Shown here one piece after another: positions 8-6,538 of a stretch of 7,901 nt of DNA. The position numbers and the translations under genes were made by a program. The stretch's first letter is position 1. The number at the start of each line of letters is the position of its first letter. The DNA comes from Planctomycetota bacterium. Lineage in GTDB: Bacteria > Planctomycetota > Phycisphaerae > WQYP01. The stretch spans positions 1 through 7,901 of the forward strand of contig JAJZCT010000136.1 in the NCBI GenBank assembly GCA_021828925.1, in the 5' to 3' direction. Below the pieces are notes generated by a model. The model did not search any database. It was not told where the DNA came from and saw only the letters and a list, made by a program, of their open reading frames with translations.

Positions 8-1828
8 TCATCCACTTGACAATAAATTGCCCAGGCTGTTTGTTGCGATGAACTCATCGGCTCGATTAAACACATTCAAAAAGAGCGGTGTACCAGCGAA
101 TGACAGTGGGCTAATTGGCCCTATCGTCATGAAAGAGTACTGACGGCTGGAAATATCAAATGAAGAATGTGGATCACGGAATAAGCCGTAAAGGCGCAGC
201 GCCGAATCATCACCACCAATCAACTGCCGTAGTGCCTGAAATTCTTGCCCCATCGACAGCCCGAATCCGAAAAATTGAATGCGAAGCTGCTGTAAAATTT
301 CAGTATGGAGGGAACCGAGGGTCTGGCTTATGAATAACCACCCCAATCCGTATTTACGCGTGGTACGAACAGCGTCTATCAATACATTTCGAACCGCGCC
401 AGCGGCATTTCCGTCCTCAGGTAATTGGCGTGGCGCGAGGCGGTGCGCTTCATCCATCAATACCAATGTGTTCAGCCCTTTCTCCTTGCCCTCTTGAAAG
501 CGCTTTTCGGCAATCGATGTAACACCATCAAGCAATCGCTTAATTACCAGGGATTGAATCGTATCCGTCCAAAGCATTCCAGCCGCCTGCTCTCTGGATA
601 AATCTATTACCAGCACTGGACGAACACCTTCCTTCGGATTCAGATCAAGCAGCCAATTCAGCGCACTCTCGACTGTTCTAGCCTGCTCCCTTGATTTATC
701 GAACAACGCCGTGACTGGTTTCCAATAGCGATCAAAGAAAACGTTTGCATCCGCATCGACCCGGGCGGACTCAAAACGCTCACGGGTACCTGGGGTACGG
801 TAAAACACCTGCTGAACCTTAGTGTCTGCTAGAATCGCCCATGCTGTGTCAAACGCCGGCCGCTCATGAAGATCTTCCAACTTGACCTTCTTTTTCTTCA
901 GCTCGTCTGCTAGTTTTGCGCACGCATCCCGGCGATTATCGCCTTTCGGCATGGTTAATTGCTGAAAGAAATCGCTTTCAAACAGAATCTCCTCAAACAG
1001 TTCCCACCGGTCAAGGACAAGGTTTTGAACCGAAAGCTTGGCTACTTTCTTCCTAAACTTCCTGGCAACATCCGCGAGAGGTATACGCATTTCACCGCTT
1101 CCACCGCCCTGAAAATCTTTTGCGAACTCCCCTTGAGGATCAAGGATGAGTAACCCCATTTGCTCATACCTCATATACGCACATAGCGCCATCTTCGCCA
1201 ACACACTCTTCCCGCTACCAGTTTTTCCAAAGATGCCGATATGGTAAGCCTCTCCTGCCCCATCGGGACCCCGATCAAAATGCTTGAACCATAATGGCAA
1301 CCTCGGCGTCGATCCGTACACATTTCCCAGATAGAATATTTGATCCCTATAGCGGCGCAAGACAGTCCCAAGGACGTCATCGTTCACGATATGTATGGCC
1401 GTACCAGTCGATGGCACCGTACCCATTATACTCGGCTCATAACTAATTCCGCCCTTCGCGTCCGACGTACCCGTTGGCAATGCCACATGCTTGAATACCG
1501 CACTAATCGTCATCTTGCCAAGGTGTGTATCTTGGCGTTCACTGACCGCCTCGATCCTTCCCCGTTGTCGAATGAGCGATCGCATCGTTGGATCCTCATG
1601 CCAGACATTGCGAAGCTCAATCTCAGTAATCTGGCCGAGCGCGTAGTGGGGAGTGCCGTCCTGAGCGAAGGAGAACACAGCGAGCTCACCGACCAGCTTA
1701 CGACCTGCCGCAGTGCCAATGACATCAACCGCAAATTCGGAGGTACTTGAAGGCGATCCAATTACGCCAAGGCGCTCTGTCCGAGCAACCACTGCATCAA
1801 GTTGTTCAGCACGAGATGTTTCGGCCAT
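8..1828 (-). CDS. herA: HerA-type FtsK-like DNA translocase ATPase (DUF87 family)
   Basis: 606 residues. HerA proteins form hexameric rings that use ATP to move along DNA and drive a partner nuclease, usually NurA. Visible features: an N-terminal HAS-barrel-like segment at about residues 30-60, Walker A GKTGSGKS at 201-208, DPQGEF at 230-235, Walker B TLVLMDEAHR at 454-463 (D459, E460), and the sensor/arginine region DAVRTTRKYGLG at 485-496 followed by the polar motif SQT at 501-503. All catalytic motifs look intact. No signal peptide or membrane segment is seen, so it should be cytosolic. The ATG at 1826-1828 has the Shine-Dalgarno sequence AAGGAG at 1836-1841, overlapping the stop of the nuclease gene upstream, so translation is probably coupled. 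It is the last gene of the operon seen here; it stops 8 bases from the window edge, so a further gene or terminator could lie outside. Family assignment is firm; the defence role is inferred from its neighbours. Confidence 0.93.
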   Translation of the reverse strand: MAETSRAEQLDAVVARTERLGVIGSPSSTSEFAVDVIGTAAGRKLVGELAVFSFAQDGTPHYALGQITEIELRNVWHEDPTMRSLIRQRGRIEAVSERQDTHLGKMTISAVFKHVALPTGTSDAKGGISYEPSIMGTVPSTGTAIHIVNDDVLGTVLRRYRDQIFYLGNVYGSTPRLPLWFKHFDRGPDGAGEAYHIGIFGKTGSGKSVLAKMALCAYMRYEQMGLLILDPQGEFAKDFQGGGSGEMRIPLADVARKFRKKVAKLSVQNLVLDRWELFEEILFESDFFQQLTMPKGDNRRDACAKLADELKKKKVKLEDLHERPAFDTAWAILADTKVQQVFYRTPGTRERFESARVDADANVFFDRYWKPVTALFDKSREQARTVESALNWLLDLNPKEGVRPVLVIDLSREQAAGMLWTDTIQSLVIKRLLDGVTSIAEKRFQEGKEKGLNTLVLMDEAHRLAPRQLPEDGNAAGAVRNVLIDAVRTTRKYGLGWLFISQTLGSLHTEILQQLRIQFFGFGLSMGQEFQALRQLIGGDDSALRLYGLFRDPHSSFDISSRQYSFMTIGPISPLSFAGTPLFLNVFNRADEFIATNSLGNLLSSG

Positions 1829-1840
1829 TTTGCACGCTCC

Positions 1841-3019
1841 TTACCGTCCACCTTCGCTGCGGTATCCATGCATCGCGAAAAAGACCTCGCCTATATCGCC
1901 ATCATAATCAACACTTATTCTTTGAGTTGCAACCTGGCGGAACGCCGGTATAGCCGCCGCCAATGACTTGGCCATGCGATCGGCCATATAGAGCGGATAC
2001 GGTTCCAGCATAGATGCTACGATTGTTTGTTCCTTCAGCCCGCGCAAAACCACCGCTAATCGATGTGGATTGTCTGCCACAGCAGAACCCACCTCGACAC
2101 GCATTGCCGGGATAAACCCATGTGGTCGATAATACACCACCTTTATTGTTTTAAGCGCTGCGACAATCTCATCCGCAATGGCCTTTAACGCATCGGCTGT
2201 CGCACCGCCAGCCGTGGCCGTATGCAGGTGGAAATTATTGTCCAACATTGTCTGAGGTCGCGTGAATTCCCCTGGCCGAAGTAGCATCGTCAGCAGCGAG
2301 CGATCGTCGTGGTGAGACGGCCAGCCGGCCCTTTCGCCGATTTCACGCCTGGTCGCATATTTGGGCAGCCCTGCGTATGCCTTGTCCGACCTCGGGCATC
2401 TCAGGACATCGCGGTAATGCTCAATGAATTCAAGTGCGCGCCGCTGGAACTCGTCGACGCAGGCGAGTGCCGTGGCCCCCAACTTTCCGGTGATCTCGTG
2501 TGCTTTAGCAAACGCTTGGTTGAAATAGATCACGGGCAATGACAATGTCATGTCGAGCAACACAAGATCATGCGGAGCGCCAATCGCCAATTCCAGCTCA
2601 CGCCCCAGCATCACCGCCCGTAAAACTGTGGGAGTACTGTCATTATGTACTTCGGCATGAACAAAAGTGCGGTAGTGGGGTGCGTCCCAGTGCCTAGTCT
2701 CGCTCGGCGGGGTGAGCCCCTCAACAGCAACCGCCGCAGCGGCAGCCAGATCAGCCGCCAATAACCTTTCGATAGCGTACGAACCATCCGTGGCGCAAGT
2801 TGTCGGAATGGCGGGGCTGGGCAGCTCAGACTCATGAGCGATCAGCCGTTCATTTTCCAGCCTCTTTCGTAATCCTGCCTTTTCTTGCTTAATGCGAGTG
2901 AAGTCTCCAAGCAGGTGAGCCCCGACCTGAACCGCGCTGGCCAACACTTCTTCGACCAAACCGGCTGGCAAGTCCGCAAAGGGTCTGGCCTGCCTAACGC
3001 CATCTATTGAATCGGCCAT
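1841..3019 (-). CDS. nurA: NurA-family nuclease
   Basis: 392 residues from the ATG at 3019. NurA is a metal-dependent, RNase H-fold 5'-to-3' exonuclease/endonuclease that docks as a dimer on the HerA ring. Supporting motifs: ATDGSYA with D78 (motif I, the DGS signature), the acidic pair in GRELELA (E141/E143), DLVLLDMTL with D156 (motif II), DRSLLTMLLRPGEFT at 239-253, and a C-terminal region with YYRPHGFIPAMRVEV at 296-310 and EPYPLYMADRMAKSL at 339-353, matching the usual NurA C-terminal pattern. An in-frame GTG at 3022 is possible, but the ATG has a better spaced GGAGG about 8 nt upstream and gives a TGATG one-base overlap with the druA-like stop. The next gene, herA, begins 12 nt downstream. 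Sequence divergence within this family is high, so the assignment rests on motif order plus the HerA neighbour. It probably cuts or resects the DNA that HerA pumps. Confidence 0.85.
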   Translation of the reverse strand: MADSIDGVRQARPFADLPAGLVEEVLASAVQVGAHLLGDFTRIKQEKAGLRKRLENERLIAHESELPSPAIPTTCATDGSYAIERLLAADLAAAAAVAVEGLTPPSETRHWDAPHYRTFVHAEVHNDSTPTVLRAVMLGRELELAIGAPHDLVLLDMTLSLPVIYFNQAFAKAHEITGKLGATALACVDEFQRRALEFIEHYRDVLRCPRSDKAYAGLPKYATRREIGERAGWPSHHDDRSLLTMLLRPGEFTRPQTMLDNNFHLHTATAGGATADALKAIADEIVAALKTIKVVYYRPHGFIPAMRVEVGSAVADNPHRLAVVLRGLKEQTIVASMLEPYPLYMADRMAKSLAAAIPAFRQVATQRISVDYDGDIGEVFFAMHGYRSEGGR

Positions 3020-4170
3020 CACCCCGCCCTCCGATCACTTGGAGTCCACAAGCGATAGGATTCTGGATCAAAACACCGAAACTCCGGGCAACGCTTCGCC
3101 CTGGCGAGAAACCATCGATCACGAAACATTTCCCACGCGTCCTGCTCAGTCATTTTAAAGAACCGCGGACGACTCAGTTCACCCCTCAGGAAAGCCAGAG
3201 CATCATGTCCGAGCGGCGCACCATAAATCTCTCGCTGAATCCCATGATTGGCGAGCTTAGCGGACAACCCGATTCGAGACAATACCTTGCGGATCACCTC
3301 CCGTTTGTTACGAAAACCATCTCCCCATGGTTCTTTCTTGGCAGTCGCTTCGCACCATCGATCAGCATACGTGCGGATGTCACCATAAACGCCATTGGAA
3401 AAATGGAATTCGCCCCAACCCTCCGTGGTGCCAATACGGTGCCAATAATTCGTGCCATCGATTCGCAAGCGATTGTAGAGGCTTGACCGCCCAAGCGCGG
3501 AAGTAGTCGTGATCAACGCCAAGTATGGTTTTCGCACTTCACCGCTAATCACAGTTTGGCGTCCGCCGTACCGTCGCCGGAAGGCCTCGCGCACTGTTTG
3601 AGTCATCGCCAACATGGCCACCAGCTTTCCACACAGCAAACCGCTATACGGTGGGACCGCTCCGAGCACGAAGGCGTCCATAACATGATACAAGCGCTCT
3701 TTCTTTGCCAAGGCGTCCCAGCCAATCCACTGATCACGCGCTCGGAGTGAGTAAACAGGATCGCCAAGTCCAAAAATTCCTATCAACTTACCATTGCTCT
3801 GATCTTCCACTAAAAATCGCAACCGTCTGCCATAGCCTGACGAAACTGGAATGCTCCAGTGTAGGCAGACATACCGAAAGAGTAATTCATCTTCGGTATT
3901 GGTATGTACCTCAATCAGCCTAGGCCTGACATTTCCCGGTAACAAATCCGAACCAAACGCGATGCGCTTTAATAAGCGATCCTCATACCGCGAAAGCCGC
4001 TGCCGGGCTTCCTCGCGCTTCTTAAGGCAGGCCATCTCGTTGATGCGACGAAGATCACCTTTTGTTGAGTCGGCGGGCAATTCCACTCGGCCACCACATA
4101 TGGTATAACCCTGCTTCCTTAAACTGCGAAGTATGTTCCTTCGCAGTATAGCTTTAGATTTCGGTCGCAT
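3019..4170 (-). CDS. DUF4338 protein, DruA family (Druantia-associated)
   Basis: 383 residues from the ATG at 4170. The central part reads as the DUF4338 domain: GRRLRFLVED at 114-123, LIGIFGLGDPVYSLRARDQWIGW at 129-151, the run VMDAFVLGAVPPYSGLLCGKLVAML at 163-187, and the motif TTTSALGRSSLYNRL at 221-235. DUF4338 proteins are the DruA component of Druantia anti-phage systems; no enzymatic activity is established that I can name. The N-terminus is very basic (MRPKSKAILRR) and may bind nucleic acid. An in-frame ATG at 4194 would add 8 residues, with a stop codon just before it; I prefer 4170 because a GGGGG tract sits six bases before it, though that signal is weak. The start overlaps a small ORF upstream by 17 nt, and the stop overlaps the NurA start by one base. 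No Druantia DruE helicase is present; HerA-NurA takes that place in this operon. Confidence 0.85.
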   Translation of the reverse strand: MRPKSKAILRRNILRSLRKQGYTICGGRVELPADSTKGDLRRINEMACLKKREEARQRLSRYEDRLLKRIAFGSDLLPGNVRPRLIEVHTNTEDELLFRYVCLHWSIPVSSGYGRRLRFLVEDQSNGKLIGIFGLGDPVYSLRARDQWIGWDALAKKERLYHVMDAFVLGAVPPYSGLLCGKLVAMLAMTQTVREAFRRRYGGRQTVISGEVRKPYLALITTTSALGRSSLYNRLRIDGTNYWHRIGTTEGWGEFHFSNGVYGDIRTYADRWCEATAKKEPWGDGFRNKREVIRKVLSRIGLSAKLANHGIQREIYGAPLGHDALAFLRGELSRPRFFKMTEQDAWEMFRDRWFLARAKRCPEFRCFDPESYRLWTPSDRRAG

Positions 4171-4273
4171 CGTACCCCCAGCGACTCTCCACATTGACGC
4201 TTATCCGTACATCCATCGTTTTTTCTGTGAAGTCGTTGATGGCCATCATCGGATATTGCATTTGTTTGGCCAT
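4154..4273 (-). CDS. Candidate 39-residue small protein or leader peptide, first ORF of the operon
   Basis: A short ORF beginning MAKQMQYPMMAIND and ending SRWGYDATEI. I do not recognise it. Support comes from the expression signals: GGAAGG at 4281-4286 is 7 nt before the ATG at 4273, and a TTGACA promoter lies about 37-45 nt further up. It overlaps the druA-like start by 17 nt, an arrangement typical of translational coupling. It is met-rich (five Met) with no membrane segment. The reading frame is open further up to a TTG at 4345, but that codon is part of the predicted -35 box, so the ATG is the sensible start. It could be a real small component, a leader peptide that sets druA translation, or a chance ORF under a good ribosome site. 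Confidence 0.5.
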   Translation of the reverse strand: MAKQMQYPMMAINDFTEKTMDVRISVNVESRWGYDATEI

Positions 4274-5545: not shown

Positions 5546-6538
5546 CTATTTGATTCGTACAACCGTTTCGCGCTGGATGCCCAGCGGTGCAAATTCCGGC
5601 TCGGCTTGAGCCAGCCAGCGCATGGCATCGGTGTAATAGCCCGCGGTGGCTTTGATTTCTGGAATATGCAGCGACCACCAGCGATTGAACATGGTCATAT
5701 ACAATTCACGTATATATTTACATGCCATACTGGCCAATGCGGTTGCCAGGCAGTGTTGCTCGGCTTTTTCCCGGAAAACAAGCAGCGTTTTTCCCGGTCG
5801 CGGCGGCGCAGTGATTAAGTAGCGGCTTTCCTGCGCGGATTCCATAAGCACTTTAAGCGGCATATCAGGAAACGTGTTCATCAGCAGCCGGGTGTAATGA
5901 TCGCGTCCGCCCTGCTTGTCGATAAACAGCAGTAAATCCGATTCATGAAACTGATCATGCAGATGGCGCGCATGCATCATGGTAATGCTGGTAAGCACCG
6001 ATGCTTTATTACCCGTTGCCGTGACCAGGCGGTTAAATTCAGGGACATCCATTACACGGGTCCATAAACCCGCCGGCGGCGTCTTGCCGTCGCGTACAAT
6101 GCTTTGCAGCATATTGCCGGCAATGGCGATAGACCCGGAATCGCCGAATGCCGGAAGGGGCAAATTGCTTTGCCAGGGCAATGGTGGGGAAAAGTGATTG
6201 GTTTTCGCGGGTGTGCCAAGCGAATCAATGAGTTGATTCCAATTTTCCGGTGCCGCGGCGTATTTGGGATTTAATCGGTGAATGGCCAGAACAGAGCGTT
6301 CCAGATATTTGTTACCATCGGATAATCGATGCACCACTTTACTGTCGGCAATGATTAATTTGCCGGACTTCACCGGCGGCCTGGAAACCACCACGGGGGA
6401 AAGTCTGTGCCAGAGTTTTGTCCCGCAACTCAGGTCCGTCGGATCCAGAGGTTCTGGAAATTCAAACGCCGCCGCCGAAACCACCAGCGGCCCCAGCAAA
6501 GGCCCGTATCCCGCTTCATCAATACCCGCAATTAACAT
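5546..6538 (-). CDS. RNase HII-like ribonuclease, long form
   Basis: 330 residues. RNase HII cuts the RNA strand of RNA-DNA hybrids and single ribonucleotides in DNA. The N-terminus GIDEAGYGPLLGP carries D7 and E8 where RNase HII has DE(A/V)GRGPLAGP. ADSK at 64-67 matches the DSK motif, FIDKQGGR at 206-212 gives the third acidic residue D207, and ASMACKYIRE at 269-278 aligns with the family's AS-x-x-AK-x-x-RD, with E278 replacing Asp. The Arg of GRG is Tyr here (Y11), as part of the tyrosine-containing subgroup rather than classical RnhB, whose GRG motif recognises the RNA-DNA junction. At 330 residues it is about 100 longer than classical RNase HII; the extra length lies around residues 75-200. 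The ATG at 6536-6538 has AAGG five bases upstream. Substrate preference is uncertain. Confidence 0.8.
   Translation of the reverse strand: MLIAGIDEAGYGPLLGPLVVSAAAFEFPEPLDPTDLSCGTKLWHRLSPVVVSRPPVKSGKLIIADSKVVHRLSDGNKYLERSVLAIHRLNPKYAAAPENWNQLIDSLGTPAKTNHFSPPLPWQSNLPLPAFGDSGSIAIAGNMLQSIVRDGKTPPAGLWTRVMDVPEFNRLVTATGNKASVLTSITMMHARHLHDQFHESDLLLFIDKQGGRDHYTRLLMNTFPDMPLKVLMESAQESRYLITAPPRPGKTLLVFREKAEQHCLATALASMACKYIRELYMTMFNRWWSLHIPEIKATAGYYTDAMRWLAQAEPEFAPLGIQRETVVRIK

Follow-up and report, generated by a model that had tools for sequence, protein, structure and literature searches.

In a 7,901-nt stretch of contig JAJZCT010000136.1 from a Planctomycetota bacterium (hereafter the window, meaning this stretch at its full length), a gene for a DruA-family protein stands in one operon with genes for a NurA-type nuclease and a HerA-type translocase ATPase, and the same three genes recur side by side in distant bacteria. 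DruA–NurA–HerA is probably a compact system, as yet without a name, that defends against foreign DNA. Our preferred reading, to which we give a probability of roughly 0.55, is a three-gene DNA-targeting defence operon in which DruA licenses or aims HerA–NurA, most likely by base marking; that the trio serves defence in general is slightly easier to accept, and the base-modification step by DruA, taken alone, is proposed tentatively. What we show is that the genes form an operon, which folds are predicted for them, that they recur side by side and that partners are swapped; complex formation by HerA and NurA, the defence role and the chemical activity of DruA we infer. The features are as follows.

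3019..4194, minus strand: druA-like gene (PF14236 / DUF4338) at the head of the operon, 391 aa
1841..3022, minus strand: nurA-like nuclease gene, starting at GTG 3022 (393 aa) or at ATG 3019 (392 aa)
8..1828, minus strand: herA-like translocase ATPase gene, 606 aa
3019..3022, minus strand: druA/nurA overlap of 4 bases, stop and start codons interleaved
1829..1840, minus strand: nurA–herA spacer of 12 bases

With this overlap and spacer, the end-to-end coupling of DUF4338, NurA and HerA genes described in an initial annotation of this DNA is real and operonic. The window DruA scores 376.4 bits with PF14236 and 367.5 bits with the PADLOC model for DruA of Druantia type I. NurA has a predicted NurA nuclease fold with the conserved Asp in a TDGSY stretch, and HerA matches PF01935 at 47.9 bits, with Walker A GKTGSGKS at residues 201–208 and Walker B MDEAH from residue 458.

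Searched with NurA, genome contigs yielded three loci, on metagenome-assembled genomes (MAGs) labelled Nitrospinota, Proteobacteria and Clostridiales, all with DruA, NurA and HerA in the order of the window; viral contigs yielded a single locus, on an IMG/VR contig of 37.8 kb (viral by label), where the trio is present and DruA is cut by the contig end. The window NurA was found in 1 of 61 relatives' genomes and in 1 of 392 genomes of the phylum, in both cases G001, which shares the window sequence, and in 1 of 18 genomes of the Nitrospinota MAG's phylum, which is that MAG itself. Two phyla, those of genomes G063 and G064, were surveyed both ways, with the NurA profile and with PF14236. In the G063 phylum the NurA profile matched 22 of 301 genomes, 14 of them strongly (3.1e-28 or better) and 8 at 3.4e-12 to 4.5e-15, and PF14236 was present in 18 of 301; the ten genomes with both all lie within the strong 14, and the two genes are adjacent in every one (10/10; Fisher p = 2.7e-11 for the strong 14 and 1.4e-8 for all 22). 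Two pairs among them are close (G554 and G594 nearly identical, G502 and G566 at 88–95% identity), which leaves about 8 independent trio genomes in this phylum rather than 10. In the G064 phylum NurA occurs in 6 of 299 genomes and PF14236 in 37, and all five genomes with both have them adjacent (p = 1.2e-4), G1042 being counted up to its contig end with HerA unseen. The gene order in G1011 is NurA–HerA–DruA. The trio is thus recurrent in distant taxa, from the three differently labelled MAGs to neighbouring genes in both surveyed phyla, and no single occurrence; shared adjacency in distant genomes, together with the co-occurrence p-values of 2.7e-11 and 1.2e-4, refutes a chance neighbourhood, in favour of which nothing was found and whose probability we put near zero.

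Within the trio, DruA varies less in step with NurA than HerA does. Across 16 trio loci (the NurA of G973 entering as the larger of two broken frames), pairwise identities correlated with r = 0.89 between NurA and HerA and with r = 0.30 between DruA and NurA (Mantel p = 0.043). After removal of G480 and two loci with short DruA the values become 0.76 and 0.60, so that the contrast comes largely from those three. Moreover, the DruA proteins of G566 and G502 are only 17–20% identical to that of the window, and in G480 the DruA is of the ordinary kind (46%), while NurA stands at 27% and HerA at 36%. Given this contrast, the divergent proteins and the mixed locus, we take DruA to have been swapped between loci while its slot remains occupied.

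One of the closest known systems is Druantia type I, which is defined by DruA through DruE, DruE being a large helicase in the operon. The window DruA is 35–42% identical to DruA of Meiothermus, Pseudomonas putida and Nitrosococcus plasmids, and a large DEAD/DEAH helicase is annotated near DruA on each of these three. Unlike Druantia, the trio has NurA and HerA and not DruE: neither the window nor any of 21 trio and trio-like loci (7–20 kb) has a stop-to-stop frame longer than 1,200 aa; for the window, and for G001 with a contig that starts inside HerA, what lies past HerA is out of view. That HerA–NurA stands in the place of DruE, as initially proposed, is borne out by the plasmid helicases and by G562 and G711, where the genes next to DruA encode 1,820 and 1,827 aa (with confirmed helicase domains in G562 alone). 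Since DruA is repeatedly found with a second motor, HerA–NurA rather than DruE, the comparison suggests that it is a portable module able to steer different DNA motors.

HerA-Sir2 and HerA-DUF4297 systems likewise couple a HerA-class ring ATPase to a nuclease-type partner gene. In the trio, by contrast, the partner is NurA with DruA as a third gene; no anti-phage HerA with Sir2 or DUF4297 was recognised, and the NCBIfam anti-phage HerA models gave the window HerA 19.9 of 800 and 13.4 of 850 bits, far under their cut-offs. Archaeal and Deinococcus HerA–NurA belong to the same two families with the same predicted NurA fold, whereas the trio forms an operon with DruA and is patchily spread. Mom of phage Mu and the Mom-endonuclease fusions of jumbo phages resemble it in placing a GNAT-fold protein beside a DNA nuclease, but the fusions carry a restriction endonuclease domain in place of a separate translocating nuclease (PMC7824862). 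DUF4338 has been assigned to GNAT, fused to some DndF proteins and in systems with HerA/FtsK domains (PMC10853773); in contrast to the trio, the HerA/FtsK capture systems and DndFGH appear in the text of that paper with no NurA, and six window ORFs (open reading frames) scanned with Dnd models gave no match. In the literature searched, with most subscription journals outside it, nothing combined three or more of DruA, HerA, NurA and Druantia, or of Mom, HerA, NurA and DruA; the trio may nonetheless carry a name already.

The predicted structure of the window DruA is a GNAT fold like that of Mom, with Mu Mom as the top structural row, tied with other GNATs. The sequence link to Mom is sub-threshold and concerns one short DruA, that of G596 (E = 1.6e-4 against Pfam Mom, under the cut-off); among 16 DruA proteins there was no Pfam Mom match at 0.05. 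An alignment of 34 DruA sequences holds 43 invariant positions, among them G189-K190 and the TTSALGRSSLYNR stretch. GNATs carry a CoA (coenzyme A) loop after the strand equivalent to DruA 171–179, and G189-K190 directly follows this predicted strand. Such invariance suggests a retained active site and not a relic. In BFVD the DruA model also matches giant-virus proteins (Faunusvirus, E = 1.5e-16; Yasminevirus, E = 5.6e-15) and a Caudovirales phage protein (E = 1.1e-8).

In our model, HerA would form a hexameric ring pump and NurA a nuclease dimer, the two acting as a single machine through which double-stranded DNA is drawn and both its strands are destroyed, and DruA would be an exchangeable, Mom-like GNAT-fold module that licenses or aims this machine, most likely through acyl modification of bases that sets self DNA apart from foreign DNA. 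Because the same pair of families is present here as in archaea and Deinococcus, a translocating nuclease clearing foreign DNA is by analogy the most likely mode. For the choice of target by DruA we favour chemical base marking over recognition without marking, its main rival. The initial annotation had DruA mark or recognise foreign DNA; marking or recognition fits the Mom-like fold, but the direction does not follow, as self could equally well be what an enzyme like Mom marks. A stronger version, which we consider rather unlikely, is a new type of restriction-modification, in which DruA writes an acyl mark on host bases and HerA–NurA shreds unmarked DNA; if it is true, DruA in Druantia, whose role is to our knowledge not known, would also be a base-modifying enzyme. 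The Mom-like fold makes DNA modification by DruA directly testable, and the three-gene set is small enough for transfer into a laboratory host.

Flanks were compared as 133 ORFs of 17 trio loci against 131 control ORFs, with PADLOC at E ≤ 1e-10. G480 has a CBASS cyclase together with its 2TM effector, and also a IIG-like enzyme; other matches are a IIG enzyme in G1011, AbiEi/AbiEii in G510, a GajA/OLD-like ATPase in G554 and an MkoA/C-like protein in G877. Thus a recognisable defence gene lies no farther than ~6.5 kb away in 5 or more of the 17 loci; among the matches listed for the control ORFs are a type II methyltransferase, PD-T4-6, a CARF fusion, mad proteins and a kinase. As to a possible linkage with mre11/rad50, AAA_23 and SMC_N each match 2 of 133 trio-flank ORFs. 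The setting is compatible with defence, no proof of it.

Two observations weigh against our reading. DruA is not obligatory, as NurA–HerA pairs occur without it: of the strong NurA genomes in the G063 phylum, four lack DruA (G572, G620 and G628, where the surroundings of the pair are constant, and G636, a broken copy), and so does the pair of G829, the sixth NurA genome of the G064 phylum, as well as pairs on plasmids (Rhizobium leguminosarum pRlX5 and a Euzebya plasmid, with different genes upstream). In addition, many trio-flank ORFs belong to metabolic or transport families, so that a defence-island setting holds for part of the loci only. The metabolic flanks and the fixed place of the pair in the lineage of G572, G620 and G628 fit a DNA repair module for double-strand-break end processing with DruA as an accessory, and the literature treats HerA–NurA mostly as a repair pair, which would gain a defence context here. 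We nevertheless find repair distinctly unlikely, in view of the patchy spread (the 1/61, 1/392 and 14 strong of 301 genomes above), the partners swapped between loci and the trio on a virus-labelled contig. That DruA recognises without modifying, as a sensor and not a writer, so that its GNAT-like domain would load HerA–NurA after binding to DNA ends, to replication intermediates or to a phage protein, is doubtful but a serious contender, and its odds overlap with those of our preferred reading because both share the defence part. It gains from the tie of Mom with other GNATs and from Druantia, where DruA acts beside a helicase and we know of no reported DNA modification; the invariant positions, with G189-K190 in the place of the GNAT CoA loop among them, argue against it.

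The trio might finally be cargo of a transposon-like element, which we regard as very improbable. Thirteen further PF14236 loci were opened in the G064 phylum, and the majority of DruA-family genes in this phylum lie outside trios. Among ten short-form loci, 4 adjoin a gene above a Pfam transposase cut-off (Tn5-like, IS66 or DDE_Tnp_1-associated; loci L144, L147, L148 and L152) and a fifth (L146) is sub-threshold; yet none of the ten has a HerA or NurA match in the stretch scanned, and the 25 commonest of 161 Pfam families in the 133 trio-flank ORFs include no transposase family. By eye, an ORF ~6 kb from the G063 trio resembles an integrase core. Pfam names these short PF14236 proteins DruA as well, a name that may mislead for them.

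DruA also keeps other company, in the eight PF14236 genomes of the G063 phylum outside its ten with NurA (G562 and G711 above, and G510, G596, G746, G741, G532 and G462) and in three of the loci opened in the G064 phylum (G862, G845 and G926). PF09376, PF01935 and DruA stand together in G510, with far-diverged NurA and HerA, and in the order PF09376–PF01935–DruA in G862. G596 has its short DruA, a 353-aa protein and a weakly HerA-like protein; in G746 DruA is followed by two further genes and a PF01935 gene, and in G845 by a 385-aa gene and PF01935. G741 carries its DruA domain within a protein of 1,247 aa, G926 has a DruA-family gene without NurA whose only ATPase is of the conjugation type, and the DruA loci of G532 and G462 stop at or near contig ends. 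At L090:9667-15183, DruA and two genes precede a PF01935 ATPase; the 429-aa gene, which has a DGS motif and lacks profile support, may be a far NurA relative.

Elsewhere in the window, positions 5546–6538 (minus strand) encode a protein of 330 aa in which a Pfam match to RNase HII is confined to residues 4–25. Near the trios of G001 (L042:6586-8580) and G062 (L071:499-2329), which differ in origin, an HD-domain-like phosphohydrolase gene precedes a gene of ~187 aa; the two HD proteins are 35% identical over 319 aa, and the PADLOC dGTPase model matches that of G062 weakly.
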